DNA from: Caulifigura coniformis
Lineage (GTDB): Bacteria > Planctomycetota > Planctomycetia > Planctomycetales > Planctomycetaceae
Length of the DNA stretch: 64,000 bases
NCBI RefSeq assembly: GCF_007745175.1
Contig: NZ_CP036271.1
Span: forward strand, 5,778,314 to 5,842,313
Direction: 5' to 3'
This document shows, in pieces, positions 1-38,218 of the stretch (the first letter of the stretch is position 1; each line of letters starts with the position of its first letter). The notes under the pieces are model-generated. The model had not been told where the DNA came from and did no database searches. It was given only the letters and a program-made list of their open reading frames with translations. A program made the translations under genes and the position numbers.

Positions 1-3000
1 GCCGAGGCCGCGAAAGTCGCCGCTGTGGATGCGGCGAAAGAGAAACAGGACGACCCGAAGGTCCGCGAGCGGATCGCGGAACTCGAACGCCGCCGTCGTG
101 ACCTCCAGGCGCAGGTCGATCTCGTCTCCCGCGAAGCCAAGTTCAAGAATGCCGAACGCGACGTCGCCCGGGCCAATTTCGACCTCAACGTCCGCGACGC
201 CAAACCGCAGACCGTCCTCACCTCGCGCCTGAACGACTTCGATCAGCAGGCCGGCCTCGCCAGCGAAAACCTGTTGAAGCTCCAGCAGATCCAGGCCGAG
301 CTCCGGCTGGTGAAGGACGAACTCACCGAGATCTACGCCGAGAAGACGGCCGCCGAGGCCGATCTGGCCAAGTTCCGCGGCGATCGCACACGCCTCTATG
401 AGCAGCTGTACAAGATCTCGCCCAACGATGAGGCGCTTCCGGAAGACGACCGCAGCAGGTTTGCGGCGGCGAAGCGTGCCTTGAAGGAATTGCCGATCAT
501 CAATGGCTTCAACCCGCACCACGCCATCCAGTACGACTGGCCGAAGGATCTCGAGATCCAGCTCGGCATGGCGCGTGTCTCGCGCGTCGATCGCTGTCGG
601 TCGTGCCACGTGAACATCAACGACTTCGGTGCGGGCGACCTCCCGAATTTCCCGAAGGACAAGTACCACGAGCCGTTCACTTCGCATCCGCAGGCGAATC
701 TGTTCCTCACGTCGTCGAGTCCGCACCCGATCGAGCGTTTTGGCTGCACGGTCTGCCACGATGGCGACGGATCAGGAACGAGTTTTCAGGCGGCCGAGCA
801 CACGCCGCGCGATCCCGCCCAGGCGACGGAATGGGCCGACAAGTACGGCTGGCATTCCAATCACTTCTGGGAATACCCGATGCAGCCCGGGCAGTTCATC
901 GAATCGAGCTGCCTCAAGTGCCACCACAGCGTCGTTGAGCTCGGCGTCAACGAGAAGTACGGAGCCACTGCTCCGAAAGTCTTCGAGGGTTACGAGCTGA
1001 TCAAATCGTACGGATGTTTCGGCTGCCACGAGATCAATGGCTACGACGGCAAGCGGTCGATCGGTCCCGACATGCGTCTGGAGCCGAACTCCGCCGCCGA
1101 ACTGGCCGCGATTGAAGCGGATCCCAATTCGGCTCCTCCGGGCGACCTGCGCAAGGTCGGGCCGTCGCTGAGGCACGTTGGATCGAAGGTGACCGAGAAC
1201 TTCATCTCGTACTGGACGGAAGACCCGCAGCGGTTCCGCCCGTCGACGAAGATGCCGAAGTTCTTCCACCTGGAGAACCAGCACGACAATCTCGCCGAGG
1301 TGCTCCAGCCGGTCGAACTGGAAGCGATCCAGGCTTACTTGACGGCGAAGTCGGAGCCGATGGCGCTCGCCTCGCCGGCCGAGGGGTATACGCCCGATGC
1401 CGAGCGCGGGAAGATCGCCTTCCAGCGCCGCGGATGCCTCGCCTGCCACACCCGCGATGAAGAAGAGCTCAAGGACATCAAGTCCGATTTCGGTCCGAAC
1501 ATCACCAACATTCATGAGAAGCTGAAGCCCGGGCAGGATGGCTTCCGCTGGCTGTACACCTGGCTGAAGAACCCGGAACTGCATCATCCGCGGACGCGGA
1601 TGCCCAACCTGTTCCTGAACCCTGAAACCGTCGGGGGCGAACAGGTCGATCCGGCGGCCGATATCGCGGCCTACCTGCTGCAGGGCGGTCCGAAGGAGTT
1701 CCCGGCGCAGCCCGTCGGCGGACCGTCGCTCGGCCTCGTCTACGACAAGAACTTTACCGAGAAAACCGCGGATTCCCTTCGCGCTCCGCATCGCGGCGTG
1801 AGGGTCGTTGAAGTCCTCCAGACCGGAGCCGGATCGCGAGCCCTGTCGCTCGATGTGACTGGAAAGCCGCCGCTGGATGGGGCCGGCAATCCGAAGTCCG
1901 ACTTCGAACGCCTCGCCCCGGTCAGGCGGGATGACATTGTTCTGGAGTTCAACGGTCAGGCCGTGACTTCGAACGAGCAGCTCGACCAGCTGGCCTCCTC
2001 GGCCGGGCTTGGCACGAAGGTCACCCTGAAGCTTTTCAGCGACGGCCTCGAGCGCCTCGTGGAAGTGCGGATCAGCACTCCGCTGGAAGACCTCACGCGG
2101 CTGTATCTGTCGAAGTCGCTCCCCGATGCGGCCCAGGTCGACAAGACCCTGGCTGATCGTCGGTTCGCTTACCAGGTTCCCGCCTACGCCTACCAGCCGA
2201 AGACCGATGGCACAGCCTGGAACTTCCGTGAGTGGGTGAAGGGGGACGAGATTGAACTGGTCGCCCGCTCCCAGGATGAGCAGGTCAGCGAAGCGGTCTG
2301 GGCGACGCGGCAGATGGAATACATCGGTCGCCGGACGATTTCGCGCTACGGCTGCTACGCCTGCCATGACATCCCCGGCTTCGAAGACGCCAAGCCAATC
2401 GGCACGGCTCTCCAGGACTGGGGGCGTAAGGACACCTCCAAACTGGCGCCCGAGCACATCCTCGAGTTCCTGCATCATCACGGCGAACCCGATGGATCGA
2501 GCACGCACAAGCGGATTGATGCCATCGTCAAACGGGGAATCTTCGACAAGGACACCTCGGCCGCCGATCAGTCCGCCGCTTCGTTCTACCAGAGCCTCGA
2601 GCATCACGGGCGTCCCGGCTTCATCTGGCAGAAGCTGAGGGAGCCCCGCAGCTACGACTTCCGCAAGACGGAATCGAAAGGCTGGGACGAGCGTCTCAAG
2701 ATGCCGAAGTTCCCGATCAACGAGCAGCAGATCGAGTCGATCGCCACGTTCGTGCTGGGGCTTGTCAACGATCCACCGGCTCCGCAGTACCAGTATCGGC
2801 CCACGGGTCCGGCCCGGGATCGCATCGAAGGCGAGCGACTGGTCGACAAGTACAACTGCACCGGTTGCCACATTTTCGAGCTTCCCAGCATCACCTACAA
2901 AGCGCCGCTTCAGGAGCTGATCGGCGCCTCGAAGGATGAGCTGGCGAACTGGTTCATTGCCAACTCGGCGAAGATTGAAACGGGCGCGATCACGCAGGAG

Positions 3001-4248
3001 GCTCTCGCAGGCCGCGCAGCCGCGGATGCGGTCGAGCCCGAATCGATGCGTGCGGCGCTCGCAACATTCATCACCAACAGTGAACGCCTGCTCGAAGGGA
3101 CGCTGCCCCAGGGCGTCGATCCGAAGACCGGCCTGGCCACGTACCTCGCCGGGCTGGCCCGTCGCGGCGGCGGTCAGCCGCTGCGTGAGTTCTTTGTGAA
3201 TCATCCGGAGACGCTCGTCGCCGACGCGTTTCCGCCGGCTGATCACCCGGAGGCGCTCCGGCTGCTCCTGAAGCTGAAGCCCGCGGTCAGTGGTCTGAAG
3301 GCGAAGGCCGGGAAAGACGGACTTGCGCTGGTCCAGGCGCACGGCCTTCTGACCGGCGTGCCCGATCCCGAAGAAGAAGACCCCGAATTGCGGATGTATG
3401 GCCTCGATGTCTGGCAGACGCTCGACATCGCCGGACGCATCAAGCTGCCCGGTTCAAAGGCGGTCGTTCAGGAATCGAACGTCGTCGAGAAGAACGGCGG
3501 CCGCGGCGGCGACCTCGCTCACTGGCTGGTGGCGCATCTCCGCGAGGAACTTCAGGATGTCAACAAGGCGTGGCAGGCCTCTCCGCCGCCGCTCTACAAG
3601 CAAGGCATCAAAGTCCAGACCCCCTGGCTGTTCCGCTTCCTGAAGAACCCCGAACAACTTCGCTATACGACCGTGCTGCGCATGCCGCGGTTCAACATGA
3701 GCGATGAGGAAGCCCAGACGCTCGCGAACTACTTCGCGGCCGTGGATAACGTCGAGTATCCGTATCAGTCGATCCCGCAGCAGGAGCCGCAGTTCCTCGT
3801 ATCGATGGAGGAACAGTTCAAGTCGGCCCACGCGGGCGTCATGGACGGCTACGAGCTGCAGGCCTGGAAGACGCTCAACGGCCCGCTCTGCGCCAAGTGC
3901 CACCAGGTCGGCGGCAAGCCCTACAAGTCGACTGATCCCAAGGACATTCGCGGTCCGAACCTCGAACGCGTCGAGAAGCGGCTCCAGGGAGACTGGACGC
4001 GCGCCTGGATCTATAAACCGACCTGGTTCACTCCCTACACGTCGATGCCAGTGAACTTCCCGGCCGATAAGCCGCCGTTCCCCGATCTCTTCGGAGCCAG
4101 CTCGCGCGAGCAGGTGGAAGGGGTGGTCTTCAGCCTGATGAATTACAGTCGAATCCTCGAGAAGCTGGGTGTGGTGGCCTACGAGCCGCCGACGCCGGCG
4201 GAGCAGACTCCGCCGCCTGCCCCGCAGGCATCGGGAGGTGAGGAATGA
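1..4248 (+). CDS. Octaheme c-type cytochrome with coiled coil and PDZ domain (5' truncated by window)
   Basis: The frame is open to base 1, so the true start lies upstream; a GTG at 25 is only the first internal start codon. Counting residues from that GTG, eight CxxCH heme sites are visible: CRSCH 191-195, CTVCH 241-245, CLKCH 296-300, CFGCH 331-335, CLACH 471-475, CYACH 777-781, CTGCH 945-949 and CAKCH 1289-1293. Residues 1-140 are charged and heptad-like (coiled coil). A PDZ-like module sits at about 570-690. The C-terminus is Pro/Ala-rich. It heads a run of genes leading into cytochrome oxidase, so I infer a role as a large periplasmic electron carrier, possibly attached to a bc/alternative-complex-III type quinol oxidoreductase encoded upstream. 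The next gene overlaps its stop by 4 bases (ATGA), indicating translational coupling. Heme attachment is certain from the motifs; the partner complex is inference. Confidence 0.85.
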   Translation, partial: AEAAKVAAVDAAKEKQDDPKVRERIAELERRRRDLQAQVDLVSREAKFKNAERDVARANFDLNVRDAKPQTVLTSRLNDFDQQAGLASENLLKLQQIQAELRLVKDELTEIYAEKTAAEADLAKFRGDRTRLYEQLYKISPNDEALPEDDRSRFAAAKRALKELPIINGFNPHHAIQYDWPKDLEIQLGMARVSRVDRCRSCHVNINDFGAGDLPNFPKDKYHEPFTSHPQANLFLTSSSPHPIERFGCTVCHDGDGSGTSFQAAEHTPRDPAQATEWADKYGWHSNHFWEYPMQPGQFIESSCLKCHHSVVELGVNEKYGATAPKVFEGYELIKSYGCFGCHEINGYDGKRSIGPDMRLEPNSAAELAAIEADPNSAPPGDLRKVGPSLRHVGSKVTENFISYWTEDPQRFRPSTKMPKFFHLENQHDNLAEVLQPVELEAIQAYLTAKSEPMALASPAEGYTPDAERGKIAFQRRGCLACHTRDEEELKDIKSDFGPNITNIHEKLKPGQDGFRWLYTWLKNPELHHPRTRMPNLFLNPETVGGEQVDPAADIAAYLLQGGPKEFPAQPVGGPSLGLVYDKNFTEKTADSLRAPHRGVRVVEVLQTGAGSRALSLDVTGKPPLDGAGNPKSDFERLAPVRRDDIVLEFNGQAVTSNEQLDQLASSAGLGTKVTLKLFSDGLERLVEVRISTPLEDLTRLYLSKSLPDAAQVDKTLADRRFAYQVPAYAYQPKTDGTAWNFREWVKGDEIELVARSQDEQVSEAVWATRQMEYIGRRTISRYGCYACHDIPGFEDAKPIGTALQDWGRKDTSKLAPEHILEFLHHHGEPDGSSTHKRIDAIVKRGIFDKDTSAADQSAASFYQSLEHHGRPGFIWQKLREPRSYDFRKTESKGWDERLKMPKFPINEQQIESIATFVLGLVNDPPAPQYQYRPTGPARDRIEGERLVDKYNCTGCHIFELPSITYKAPLQELIGASKDELANWFIANSAKIETGAITQEALAGRAAADAVEPESMRAALATFITNSERLLEGTLPQGVDPKTGLATYLAGLARRGGGQPLREFFVNHPETLVADAFPPADHPEALRLLLKLKPAVSGLKAKAGKDGLALVQAHGLLTGVPDPEEEDPELRMYGLDVWQTLDIAGRIKLPGSKAVVQESNVVEKNGGRGGDLAHWLVAHLREELQDVNKAWQASPPPLYKQGIKVQTPWLFRFLKNPEQLRYTTVLRMPRFNMSDEEAQTLANYFAAVDNVEYPYQSIPQQEPQFLVSMEEQFKSAHAGVMDGYELQAWKTLNGPLCAKCHQVGGKPYKSTDPKDIRGPNLERVEKRLQGDWTRAWIYKPTWFTPYTSMPVNFPADKPPFPDLFGASSREQVEGVVFSLMNYSRILEKLGVVAYEPPTPAEQTPPPAPQASGGEE

Positions 4249-5434: not shown

Positions 5435-6892
5435 ATGAAGAAGTCTGAGTTTTCCATCGGCACACGATCAACCGGAACGGCGCGCGGGCGCGCTTTCCCC
5501 GGCGCGCTGACCGCAGGGCTGCTGGCGATGGTGGCCCTCACGTCCGGCTGCGTCAGGCACGATGCCGAGTTCTCGCACCGCGAGGAATACAATGAACTCA
5601 TCCCGGAGGGGCAGGAATACGTCCACAAGGTTCTCGGGACCTACTTCGGAAAGCCCACGCGGATCGTCGCCTGGGAAAAGCTTCCGTTGAAGCTGCATGC
5701 AGCCGTCGGAACGGTCGGTGAAGGCGCCACCTCCCTCTCCGTCCCGGTCAATTTCACCCAGGAGAACCTGCCGCTCCGTCCGGAACTCGAAGCCGCCTGG
5801 CTGTCCGGCAACCTCTTCCAGAAGAACGACACTCCCGCGCTCATCGAAGCCATCGGCGAGAACGGATCCGTCATGTTTCCCGATCCTGGGCTGGCCCAAC
5901 TGCCGGCTGCAGGGGATCGCGTCGCTATCGGGCCGGGCGAAGTCCTGAAGTTCGGCCGCGTCCTGTACGCCGAGCACTGCCTGCACTGCCACGGCGTCTC
6001 AGGCGACTCCCACGGCCCGACCGCTCCTTACCTCAACCCGAAGCCGCGTGATTTCCGCCGCGGCATCTTCAAGTTCACGACGACCGTGGCCGCCAGCCGC
6101 GCGTCCCGGACGGATCTTTCCCGGACGATCGATGAAGGCATCCCGGGCACCTACATGCCGTCCTTCAAGCTGCTCACTCCCGACGAGAACATGGCGCTCG
6201 TCGAGTACGTCCTCTGGCTGGCAATGCGTGGCGAGGTCGAATACCAGCTCACCGGGCAGCTCAAGAACGACTACTCGAACGAAGCCTTCGCTGATCGCGT
6301 GAAAGGCGGTGAATCGGCCGCCGAGATCCGTAAGGAGCTCACCGACGCCGTCAACGGCGGCGAGATGGCCGACACGTTCAACGGCATCGTCGATACCGCG
6401 GTCGAACGCTGGGTGGCCGCCCAGGAAGAGGCCTCCCTCGTGACGCCAACCGTCAAGCATCTCGAGGCGACCGCCGAATCGATCGCCCGCGGCCGGGCGC
6501 TCTACCTGTCGAAAGACCTCAACTGCGTCGCCTGCCACGGCGAGGCAGGGCTGGGCGATGGACCGCAAACGTACTCGATCACCAAGAACTCCGCCGGCGC
6601 CGACAACCCGACGCCCGGCCTCTACGACGATTGGGGCAACCTCGTCGTTCCCCGAAACCTCACGACGGGAATCTACCGCGGAGGCCGCCGGCCGATCGAT
6701 CTGTTCAGCCGGCTGCACGGCGGAATCAAGGGAACCCCCATGCCGGCGTTCGGCGGAAAGAAATCGGATGAAGAGTTGTGGGACCTCGTGAACTACATCA
6801 TGAGCGTGCCCTACGAGAAGCGGACACCCGGCGATGGGTCGAAAGAAGCGAAGCCGGCCGAAGCGCCGCCGCAGGTCGCGGCGGGAGGGTGA
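5435..6892 (+). CDS. Diheme c-type cytochrome lipoprotein
   Basis: The 485-residue protein has a signal peptide ending in LTSGC (Cys39), so it is probably lipid-anchored. Two heme c sites are visible: CLHCH at 182-186 and CVACH at 364-368, each followed by Gly as in class I cytochrome c domains (CxxCHG). The second domain has a later TPMPAFGGK segment that could give the Met axial ligand; the first has TYMPSFK. It lies between the small lipoprotein and oxidase subunit II. It is probably the direct donor to the CuA centre, comparable to membrane-bound cytochromes in other oxidase operons. Heme attachment is read from the sequence; donor role is inference. Confidence 0.85.
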   Translation: MKKSEFSIGTRSTGTARGRAFPGALTAGLLAMVALTSGCVRHDAEFSHREEYNELIPEGQEYVHKVLGTYFGKPTRIVAWEKLPLKLHAAVGTVGEGATSLSVPVNFTQENLPLRPELEAAWLSGNLFQKNDTPALIEAIGENGSVMFPDPGLAQLPAAGDRVAIGPGEVLKFGRVLYAEHCLHCHGVSGDSHGPTAPYLNPKPRDFRRGIFKFTTTVAASRASRTDLSRTIDEGIPGTYMPSFKLLTPDENMALVEYVLWLAMRGEVEYQLTGQLKNDYSNEAFADRVKGGESAAEIRKELTDAVNGGEMADTFNGIVDTAVERWVAAQEEASLVTPTVKHLEATAESIARGRALYLSKDLNCVACHGEAGLGDGPQTYSITKNSAGADNPTPGLYDDWGNLVVPRNLTTGIYRGGRRPIDLFSRLHGGIKGTPMPAFGGKKSDEELWDLVNYIMSVPYEKRTPGDGSKEAKPAEAPPQVAAGG

Positions 6893-36345: not shown

Positions 36346-36843
36346 ATGACGTTGATGCCCATGCCGGCCGGCGGTGATGTTCCCGGCATCGATGCGGACG
36401 CCGAACGTGGACGCTTCATGCTGATGCTGGCCGCGACTGCGGCCTTCCTTGTCGCGTCGTGGCACACGTTTCACGAACTTCGCTACTTCGTATCCGGTCA
36501 ACAGGCCGTCGCGACGGTCCAGCGGGTCAATCGCGTTGTCGAACCGGGACGACGCTCGCGGGAGTACCTGCGTGTCGAAGCCGAGTTCGAAGATCGCGGC
36601 GGGGCGCGGCGTGCGGCCGTGCTGCGGGCACCGCTCGATTCCGGGATCAGCGACGGCCAACGCGTCGACATTGAATTCCTGCCGTCCGATCCGGATCGGG
36701 TGCGGATCAAAGGAGACCGGAACGTCGCCTGGATGGCCGTATTCGCCGTTTCAACTGCGTGGATGACGCGGACGCTCGTGCGGCTCGTGCGGGAGTCGCG
36801 ACGTCCCATCCCGTCGTCGCGTGGGCGACGTTCGTCCCGGTGA
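36346..36843 (+). CDS. DUF3592-like two-helix membrane protein
   Basis: The 165-residue protein has two membrane segments (about 24-40 and 126-144) around a small beta domain (residues 52-120: QAVATVQRVNRVVEPG ... VDIEFLPSDPDRVRIKG). The layout matches DUF3592 proteins. The C-terminus is very basic. It starts 25 bases after the sulfatase stop. Function unknown. Confidence 0.65.
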   Translation: MTLMPMPAGGDVPGIDADAERGRFMLMLAATAAFLVASWHTFHELRYFVSGQQAVATVQRVNRVVEPGRRSREYLRVEAEFEDRGGARRAAVLRAPLDSGISDGQRVDIEFLPSDPDRVRIKGDRNVAWMAVFAVSTAWMTRTLVRLVRESRRPIPSSRGRRSSR

Positions 36844-36892: not shown

Positions 36893-38218
36893 ATGCGAAC
36901 GGCGTTCGTGTTCTGGCTTGCCCTGGGTTCATTGCTGTCGGCCGCTCCCCCGAACCTTCGGGAGCAGAAGGTTCGGGCCGACAAGGCCAAAGTCGAAGCC
37001 GAAGGGTTCTGGATCTACAACGATCTCGAGAAAGGCTTCGCACAGGCGCGCGCGACCGGGAAGCCGCTGGTTGTCGTGCTGCGGTGCATTCCTTGCGAGG
37101 AATGCGTGAAGCTGGATGATGAACTGGTCGACACCGATCCGGTGATCAAGCCGCTGCTGGAAAAATACGTGTGCGTTCGAATCGTCGGGACCAACGGACT
37201 CGACCTGTCGCTGTTCCAGTATGACACCGACCAGTCGTTCGCGGTGTTCCTGCTCAATGCCGACAAGACCATCTACGGCCGATTCGGAACACGCTCGCAC
37301 CGTACCGAGTGGGTGGGGGACGTTTCGCTGACCGGCATGGCAAAAGCCCTCGCGAGGGGGCTTGAACTGCACGCGGCCTTTCCGGGGAACCGGGAATCGC
37401 TGGCCGGCAAACGAGGCCCCGCGACGGAATTCGCCTCTCCCGAGCAGTACCCCGCTCTCAAGGAAAAATACACCGCAACGCTGAATTACGAAGGGAACGT
37501 TGTTCAGAGCTGCATTCACTGTCACCAGATCGGCGACGCCCAGCGCGAGTTGTACTGGAAATCGGGGAAGCCCGTTCCGGAATCGGTCATGTTCCCGGCC
37601 CCGCATCCTTCGGTTGTCGGGCTGACGCTCGATCCCAGGGAGTGTGCCACGGTGCTCAGCGTCGAACCCGGGAGCGCGGCCGCGACGGCCGGCATTCAGC
37701 CCGGTGACGCCATCGTTTCGCTCGCCGGCCAGCCGCTGGTTTCCATCGCGGACGTTCAGTGGGTGCTGCATCGCACTCCCGCGGAAGGGGGGACGATCAA
37801 GGCCGAGCTGCAGCGCGGCGGCAAGATGGTGCCCGCGACGCTGACTCTTCCGGCGGGGTGGAAGCGGGCGGGAGATATTTCCTGGCGAGTCACGTCGTGG
37901 GGCCTGCGCCGCATGACGCTGGGGGGCATGCGGCTCGAGCCTCTCGGTGAGTCGGAACGCGAGTCGCAGGGGATCGCGAAGGGGCAGACGGCGCTGCGCG
38001 TCATCGGACTCGGTAAGTACGGCGCGCACGCGACCGCCCTGAAGGCCGGTCTGAAGGAGGGGGATGTGATCGTCGCTTACGACGGCGAGACCGCTCTCGA
38101 GCGCGAGGCGGACGTCTTCTGGCACGCGGTGTCGAAACGGCATCCGGGCGACAAAGTCGCCATCAAGGTGACACGGGTCGGCCAGCCGATGGAGTTCACG
38201 ATTCCGCTGCAGGAATAG
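36893..38218 (+). CDS. Secreted thioredoxin-like / heme c / double PDZ fusion protein
   Basis: The 441-residue protein has a signal peptide (1-18). A thioredoxin-like domain spans about 35-165 with CIPCEEC (Cys65, Cys68, Cys71). A single heme c site, CIHCH, lies at 207-211, and two PDZ domains at about 250-345 and 375-440. The combination suggests a periplasmic redox protein that binds peptides. ATG 36893 follows a good GGAGGT site. Its 3' end overlaps the stop of the convergent gene at 38196 by 23 bases. Domain calls come from motif reading. Confidence 0.8.
   Translation: MRTAFVFWLALGSLLSAAPPNLREQKVRADKAKVEAEGFWIYNDLEKGFAQARATGKPLVVVLRCIPCEECVKLDDELVDTDPVIKPLLEKYVCVRIVGTNGLDLSLFQYDTDQSFAVFLLNADKTIYGRFGTRSHRTEWVGDVSLTGMAKALARGLELHAAFPGNRESLAGKRGPATEFASPEQYPALKEKYTATLNYEGNVVQSCIHCHQIGDAQRELYWKSGKPVPESVMFPAPHPSVVGLTLDPRECATVLSVEPGSAAATAGIQPGDAIVSLAGQPLVSIADVQWVLHRTPAEGGTIKAELQRGGKMVPATLTLPAGWKRAGDISWRVTSWGLRRMTLGGMRLEPLGESERESQGIAKGQTALRVIGLGKYGAHATALKAGLKEGDVIVAYDGETALEREADVFWHAVSKRHPGDKVAIKVTRVGQPMEFTIPLQE

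Follow-up and report, generated by a model that had tools for sequence, protein, structure and literature searches.

A planctomycete Trx7/PDZ protein family with an invariant CxHCH motif, a putative heme c site, and recurrent selenocysteine at its redox site

Introduction

Papers on the Global Ocean Sampling data report a selenoprotein under the name "putative secreted serine protease MucD", which is taken from a secreted protease of PDZ type, and describe it as having a CxxU or CxxC/U motif, a PDZ fusion and an extra conserved Cys 'without clear function' (PMC2398784; PMC9402790). Magnetochrome, a small CXXCH heme domain found beside PDZ domains in MamE and MamP, mostly occurs in tandem and is described there only from magnetotactic bacteria; in MamE, which has an HtrA-like layout, the heme domain lies between the protease and the PDZ domains (PMC3971196). 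A c-type cytochrome of Geobacter with a predicted selenocysteine (Sec) residue brings a Sec candidate and CXXCH together in one polypeptide (PMC1914089). In the thioredoxin (Trx) fold, the cis-Pro before the third beta strand likely contributes to the binding of substrate and may shield the CxxC motif from metals, and this residue is also replaced in peroxiredoxins, by Arg (PMC2757866).

The window analysed here, a 64,000-nucleotide stretch of the Caulifigura coniformis genome, encodes a protein that is almost certainly a full-length member, in its Cys form, of the family catalogued by NCBIfam as NF041199, "Trx7/PDZ domain-containing (seleno)protein". The name and description line of this entry mention neither CxHCH nor heme, and neither a functional study of the family nor a paper naming heme in it was found in the literature searched. 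What is new is the invariance of CxHCH across a family census, the counts of TGA codons with their accompanying hairpin, and the family-wide absence of the cis-Pro.

Domain architecture of the protein

The open reading frame at 36893-38218 (+) begins with an ATG at 36893, closely preceded by GGAGG, and its stop codon ends at 38218; the product has 441 amino acids (Table 1). An earlier note had described a secreted protein here, combining a thioredoxin-like CIPCEEC site, a CIHCH motif and two PDZ domains, and all of these parts, including the leader, are confirmed.

Table 1. Features of the gene and its product, in window positions.
Feature	Position	Strand	Basis
Whole gene, exported Trx7/PDZ protein, 441 aa	36893..38218	+	ORF; NF041199 413.3 bits
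Hydrophobic leader, probable signal peptide, residues ~1-18	36893..36946	+	Sequence; family hydropathy
Thioredoxin-fold domain, residues 37-164	37001..37384	+	Pfam Thioredoxin_7 40-123; VIA-align to 3f9u
CIPCEEC redox site, residues 65-71	37085..37105	+	Sequence; family census
Ser115, just ahead of strand 116-121, usual place of the cis-Pro	37235..37237	+	Census; modelled strand
His160, strongly conserved, outside the motif	37370..37372	+	198/214 census rows
Linker with CxHCH, residues 165-240, modelled helices and loops	37385..37612	+	AF2 of residues 146-250
CIHCH, residues 207-211, putative covalent heme c site	37511..37525	+	Invariant in census
PDZ domain 1, residues ~244-320	37622..37852	+	Pfam PDZ_2 252-319; DegQ/DegP PDZ; HtrA2 PDZ
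PDZ domain 2, residues ~341-438	37913..38206	+	Second PDZ_2 stretch; AlgW PDZ Z 13.9 over 341-441

A hydrophobic leader is found in 211 of 212 family rows with a crude hydropathy window. In the Pfam scan, the window protein matches Thioredoxin_7 over residues 40-123 with 62.2 bits and, in two stretches, PDZ_2 with 62.6 bits (cut-off 27 for each); no trypsin-like protease domain appears at E up to 1. The AlphaFold2 model, made with 51 sequences, has a mean pLDDT of 90.7, and its first domain is indeed a thioredoxin fold, as the earlier note had proposed: residues 37-164 superpose on 3f9u, titled as the C-terminal domain of a putative exported cytochrome c biogenesis-related protein, with Z 13.1 and rmsd 2.4 over 116 residues (VIA-align). 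Both PDZ regions superpose on HtrA-type PDZ domains by the same program, MamP being among the structural matches via its PDZ domain (Z 11.3), and conservation is strong in and between the PDZ domains, for example at W323 and D287. An origin of the combination of motif and domains by chance or artefact is excluded, both being kept family-wide. Mean pLDDT is lower in the blocks of the redox site (76 for residues 61-70 and 70 for 71-80) and in the loop 131-140 (window 37283-37312; 73), itself conserved (G132 and R134, after R130), as if a cofactor or partner were absent from the model.

Family distribution and census

The window protein matches NF041199 with 413.3 bits, against a cut-off of 300, over positions 1-389 of the 390 of the profile. 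Of 392 Planctomycetota genomes, an even sample of the phylum, 124 contain a protein of this family at E up to 1e-30, 110 of them over the cut-off, and none of 14 control genomes does; at the looser limit of E up to 1e-8, six of the 14 control genomes match, none over the cut-off. The domain order, which the earlier note had taken for an unusual chimera, is thus that of a named family, present in these 124 genomes of the phylum. The genome of C. coniformis itself holds a single copy, seven further matches being confined to the PDZ region. GTDB contigs yielded 117 confirmed relatives, and among 80 of these, 76 carry planctomycete titles, three read only 'bacterium' and one reads Verrucomicrobia.

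The census was assembled from 218 loci, which gave 216 extracted matches with TGA read as Sec. Three were dropped: L001_0 and L035_0 duplicate the window gene, and L207_1 is a piece of PDZ sequence lacking the motifs. The addition of the query brought the census to 214 rows, of which 211 are different according to the tree program with two columns masked; some genomes are seemingly in both collections, as in the case of L040 and L149, whose contigs are equally long. Clade A consists of the 118 rows, query included, that score above 500 bits against the window protein, and clade B of the 96 more distant rows. Extra TGA codons at the last aligned residues of eight rows are taken as the stop codon read through in extraction. 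A second family set, with 35 family rows, overlaps the census in part; L278-L284 of this set match in the PDZ part only and are left out of the counts, while L270, in which the Trx site lies in another frame than the PDZ part and no frame holds CxHCH, looks like an assembly break or deletion.

Four stretches (L119, L120, L121 and L122) each carry two family copies, some differing in their Sec/Cys make-up, as in L122, where one copy has Sec at 65 and 68 and the other is a Cys form; this suggests that copies were duplicated locally in clade B. A divergent group, all of it Cys and with the motif RCLPCKQC (L209, L210, L212-L214, L216-L218, L266, L277 and L285) scores around the NF041199 cut-off, has several members in SelB-bearing genomes and is possibly a separate subfamily.

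No conserved partner gene emerges from BLAST clusters of the ORFs around 210 loci, where many clade-B loci have short flanks. The largest neighbour clusters reach 17 of the 210 loci at scattered offsets and are, by eye, FGE-, DUF1501-, sulfatase- and DUF1549-like, all genes common in planctomycetes. The neighbours of the gene in the window, likewise judged by eye, are a sulfatase and a short ORF of membrane type (36346-36843) on the upstream side and an aldose epimerase on the downstream side. As for defence, no PADLOC model matches at E up to 0.01.

The redox site and its selenocysteine forms

Position 68 is Cys or Sec in all 214 census rows and position 65 in 213, the remaining row being masked as X. 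Position 71 is Cys in 204 rows and Sec in none, and because the ten clade-B rows without C71 retain both 65 and 68, the 65-68 pair seems, as far as the alignment tells, to be the essential one. The ordinary thioredoxin CxxC is probably C68-E-E-C71, with C65 as an additional upstream Cys. This register is drawn from the nearly gapless Thioredoxin_7 alignment (84 residues on 83 positions), from the model, in which a strand ends at 64 and a helix begins at 69, and from a gapless but non-significant alignment (E 0.76-0.84) that places the CxxC of TXNDC12 on C68-E-E-C71; the register search gave five matches in all, every one non-significant (E 0.47-2.5). With the register set in this way, the CxxC stands at the start of helix 1 in the model, as in a canonical thioredoxin. 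If the register is right, Sec always occupies the position of the thioredoxin nucleophile, and the Cys or Sec three residues before it is an addition of this family. The cis-Pro before the third beta strand is missing throughout: Pro occurs at 114, 115 or 116 in 0 of 214 rows, and 115 is Ser or Thr in 207.

TGA, read as Sec, is found at the redox site in 86 of the 214 rows, at both 65 and 68 in 59 of them and at 68 alone in 27. Sec never occurs at 65 alone or at 71, so 68 is always Sec when any Sec is used, and apart from the terminal TGAs in eight rows, TGA codons are restricted to the redox Cys columns. Clade A contains four rows with Sec at 65 and 68 (L133, L166, L168 and L169, reading UIPUHAC), the other 114 being Cys forms. 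The window copy, with TGC at 65 and 68, has no in-frame TGA at the site. Compared with codon shuffles, the 48 nt from codon 68 fold more strongly in Sec rows (mean z -1.39, n=86) than in Cys rows (-0.38, n=127; Mann-Whitney p 9e-11), the G+C content of this stretch being 0.62 and 0.55, respectively. In the eight best rows, those examined, a hairpin starts about 20 nt downstream; its loop reads, for example, CAGGTTG, CAGGTGG or CAGTTGG.

SelB, tested in 49 of the 124 family genomes, exceeds its cut-off in 24 of the 27 with TGA copies, the three others being genomes 76-86% complete. Among the 22 tested genomes that have no TGA copies, 8 have SelB and 14 do not, so genomes that use Sec can also harbour Cys forms; C. 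coniformis itself has no SelB over the cut-off, its best score being 165 bits against 242.25. On a FastTree phylogeny with columns 65 and 68 masked, in which long branches meet, only four changes are needed to account for the Cys/Sec state at 68 among the 214 rows. Three genomes with two linker matches (G394, G401 and G395) come from the window's own taxonomic family: L219 and L220 are Cys clade-A copies of G401 and G394, and L227, L230 and L231 (G401, G394 and G395) are distant copies whose redox site has TGA, so Cys and Sec forms can share one genome.

The redox activity that the earlier note had assigned to CIPCEEC gains support from this use of Sec at the same site. Because so many relatives use Sec there, the protein probably works as a genuine redox enzyme beyond the cytoplasm, and thiol or selenol redox catalysis can be predicted for the family with high confidence.

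The CxHCH motif and the heme question

C207, H209, C210 and H211 are each invariant in all 214 census rows, and CxHCH is present in 34 of the 35 family rows of the second set, L270 being the exception; the motif that had been read as a heme site is therefore conserved in the homologues. Binding of heme c is the reading that we favour, with some reserve. It is consistent with the exported-type leader, the exact CXXCH, the invariance in the census and the presence of CxHCH in two other proteins of the genome that resemble cytochromes. One of these, at window 5435-6892 (+), is a Cytochrom_C protein (79.5 bits in two stretches) with the motifs CLHCH and CVACH; the other, near 6191.6 kb (L233, 1570-2079 (-)), has four CXXCH, among them CIHCH and CVHCH, and is NrfH-like by eye. 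L232, a short match in a relative, likewise ends in a CVHCH protein of this kind. The cytochrome c assembly protein PF01578 is found in 119 of the 124 family-bearing genomes and in 225 of the 268 others (Fisher p 4e-4, relatedness ignored), a weak association given that 344 of the 392 genomes have PF01578 anyway; the family genomes without it (G117, G253, G280, G343 and G349) are drafts, 55-90% complete. No distal-ligand candidate is fully conserved: H160 is kept in 198 of 214 rows, which makes it a candidate second heme ligand, and H238 in 107 of 118 rows of clade A and 2 of 96 of clade B.

Alternatively, CxHCH may be a non-heme site, either a second dithiol, with a disulfide relay carrying electrons from the Trx site, or a Zn, Cu or Fe site; this has a lesser though appreciable probability. 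C-x-H-C resembles the CPHC disulfide of DsbA-type proteins. The inner His of C-x-H-C-H equals the two Cys and the outer His in invariance, which exceeds what heme attachment needs, and the surrounding region has no recognisable cytochrome fold or domain. Residues 146-250, modelled alone by AlphaFold2, reach a pLDDT of 86.6, and for this region Foldseek gives a best E of 3.9, VIA-align against 16 chains no Z of 2 or more, and a profile search of the PDB a best E of 0.25 (protein kinase C, a chance match). No Pfam family falls in the linker of the window protein; on the linkers of 64 members, the best Pfam E is 0.076, for a zinc finger in one member that was taken as chance. PSCyt3 (DUF1588), matched in two members with a best E of 0.23, was likewise dismissed. 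A novel heme mini-domain would, however, show no similarity either.

The string CXXCH also arises in the Trx site itself, where His69 in 28 Cys-type relatives produces C-x-P-C-H, a second CXXCH. Since four Sec relatives have U-x-P-U-H at this place, His69 is not there for heme, and the two variants together mean that CXXCH alone is not diagnostic in this family. For a non-heme site it can further be argued that loss of the cis-Pro removes a possible metal-excluding residue, a point that bears on the Trx site (PMC2757866). Against such a site stand the exact CXXCH in exported proteins, the c-heme assembly gene in 119 of 124 host genomes and the use of CxHCH by the two cytochrome-like proteins. 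In the C. coniformis genome as a whole (G000), DNA that could be translated as CxHCH is found 22 times when both strands are counted, and a reversed control pattern 12 times, so only part of the CxHCH sites can exceed chance.

The earlier note had further supposed that heme and PDZ form a recurring planctomycete design. The C. coniformis genome offers no support for this, as CXXCH occurs in three of the 24 PDZ frames examined (27 were found), and the combination is rare there. The three are the window gene, a giant multiheme cytochrome and a frame in L248. The giant cytochrome (window 1-4248 (+); 1415 aa, 5' open) has eight CXXCH and a PDZ-like stretch at residues 641-690 that scores 19.2 bits, below the cut-off of 27. 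In the PDZ frame of L248 (3170.5-3175.5 kb of the genome), CRCCH lies at residue 22 of the stop-to-stop frame and may precede the true start and be untranslated.

Proposed mechanism and alternatives

Beyond the anatomy and the conserved redox site, we infer the substrate, the direction of electron flow and the coupling. Taken as a whole, an exported thiol or selenol oxidoreductase, targeted by its PDZ domains and equipped with a heme relay, is the best explanation, at about even odds of being right. The PDZ pair would hold unfolded or C-terminally exposed envelope proteins, and the 65/68/71 site, with position 68 as the nucleophile of the thioredoxin CxxC, would exchange disulfides with the protein substrate so held. 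CxHCH would take up one covalent heme c after export, and the Trx site would give electrons to this heme or take them from it; such electron coupling between the two sites is proposed tentatively. The reaction would then be tied to the periplasmic cytochrome pool in place of a DsbB- or DsbD-type membrane partner. A coupling to protein quality control, which the earlier note had envisaged, may be read from the PDZ domains only.

The most specific form of this proposal, an envelope disulfide machine that joins a PDZ-held substrate, a Cys/Sec pair without cis-Pro and a covalent heme c in one polypeptide wired to the cytochrome pool, is speculative and rather unlikely to hold in every part. In such a machine, C/U65-x-x-C/U68 would be able to form a diselenide, and some family members would have both Sec and heme c.

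A peroxide- or radical-reducing enzyme is improbable. In such an enzyme, Sec or Cys68 would attack hydroperoxides and be resupplied with electrons by the heme or by a PDZ-bound partner, the PDZ domains docking that partner and not unfolded clients. In its favour, there are several families in which selenocysteine promotes peroxide chemistry. The replacement of the cis-Pro is also shared with peroxiredoxins, though these use Arg (PMC2757866). Against it, the profile matches include no peroxiredoxin or GPx model, and the best match of the Trx fold is a DsbD-like domain. It is more improbable still that the protein is an HtrA-derived, redox-switched PDZ chaperone or adaptor whose Trx part only senses the redox state, for although its PDZ pair is closest to those of DegQ, DegP and AlgW and conservation in and between the PDZ domains is strong (W323, D287), the recurrence of Sec at the Trx site speaks for catalysis over sensing.

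With two redox motifs kept throughout, Sec used repeatedly and the cis-Pro lost, the family provides a simple test case. If CxHCH does bind heme c, the enzyme would join disulfide chemistry on exported proteins to cytochromes, with some members combining Sec and heme; if it does not, an invariant CxHCH beside a selenothiol site would be an unexplained cofactor or relay site.

Comparison with known systems

The MucD selenoprotein of the Global Ocean Sampling papers, compared here by description only, probably belongs to NF041199. If it is of the same family, its CxxU would correspond to positions 65-68; the description of it in these papers mentions no heme (PMC2398784; PMC9402790). MamE and MamP are alike in the placing of a small CXXCH domain beside PDZ domains, but the catalytic part of MamE is a trypsin (PMC3971196), whereas that of the window protein is a thioredoxin. 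The profiles of MamE (NF040960) and MamP (NF040965) match the window protein in its PDZ region only, far below their cut-offs.

The best fold match, 3f9u (Z 13.1), is by its title a DsbD-type C-terminal Trx domain. In contrast to DsbD-type proteins, the window protein has no membrane domain and no cis-Pro, and it carries the extra Cys65. With HtrA, DegP and DegQ it shares the PDZ domains, though not the trypsin-like domain. The Geobacter cytochrome is alike in bringing together a Sec candidate and CXXCH, yet it has five hemes, and Trx and PDZ go unmentioned in its description (PMC1914089), whereas the window protein joins a Trx fold, two PDZ domains and a single CxHCH.
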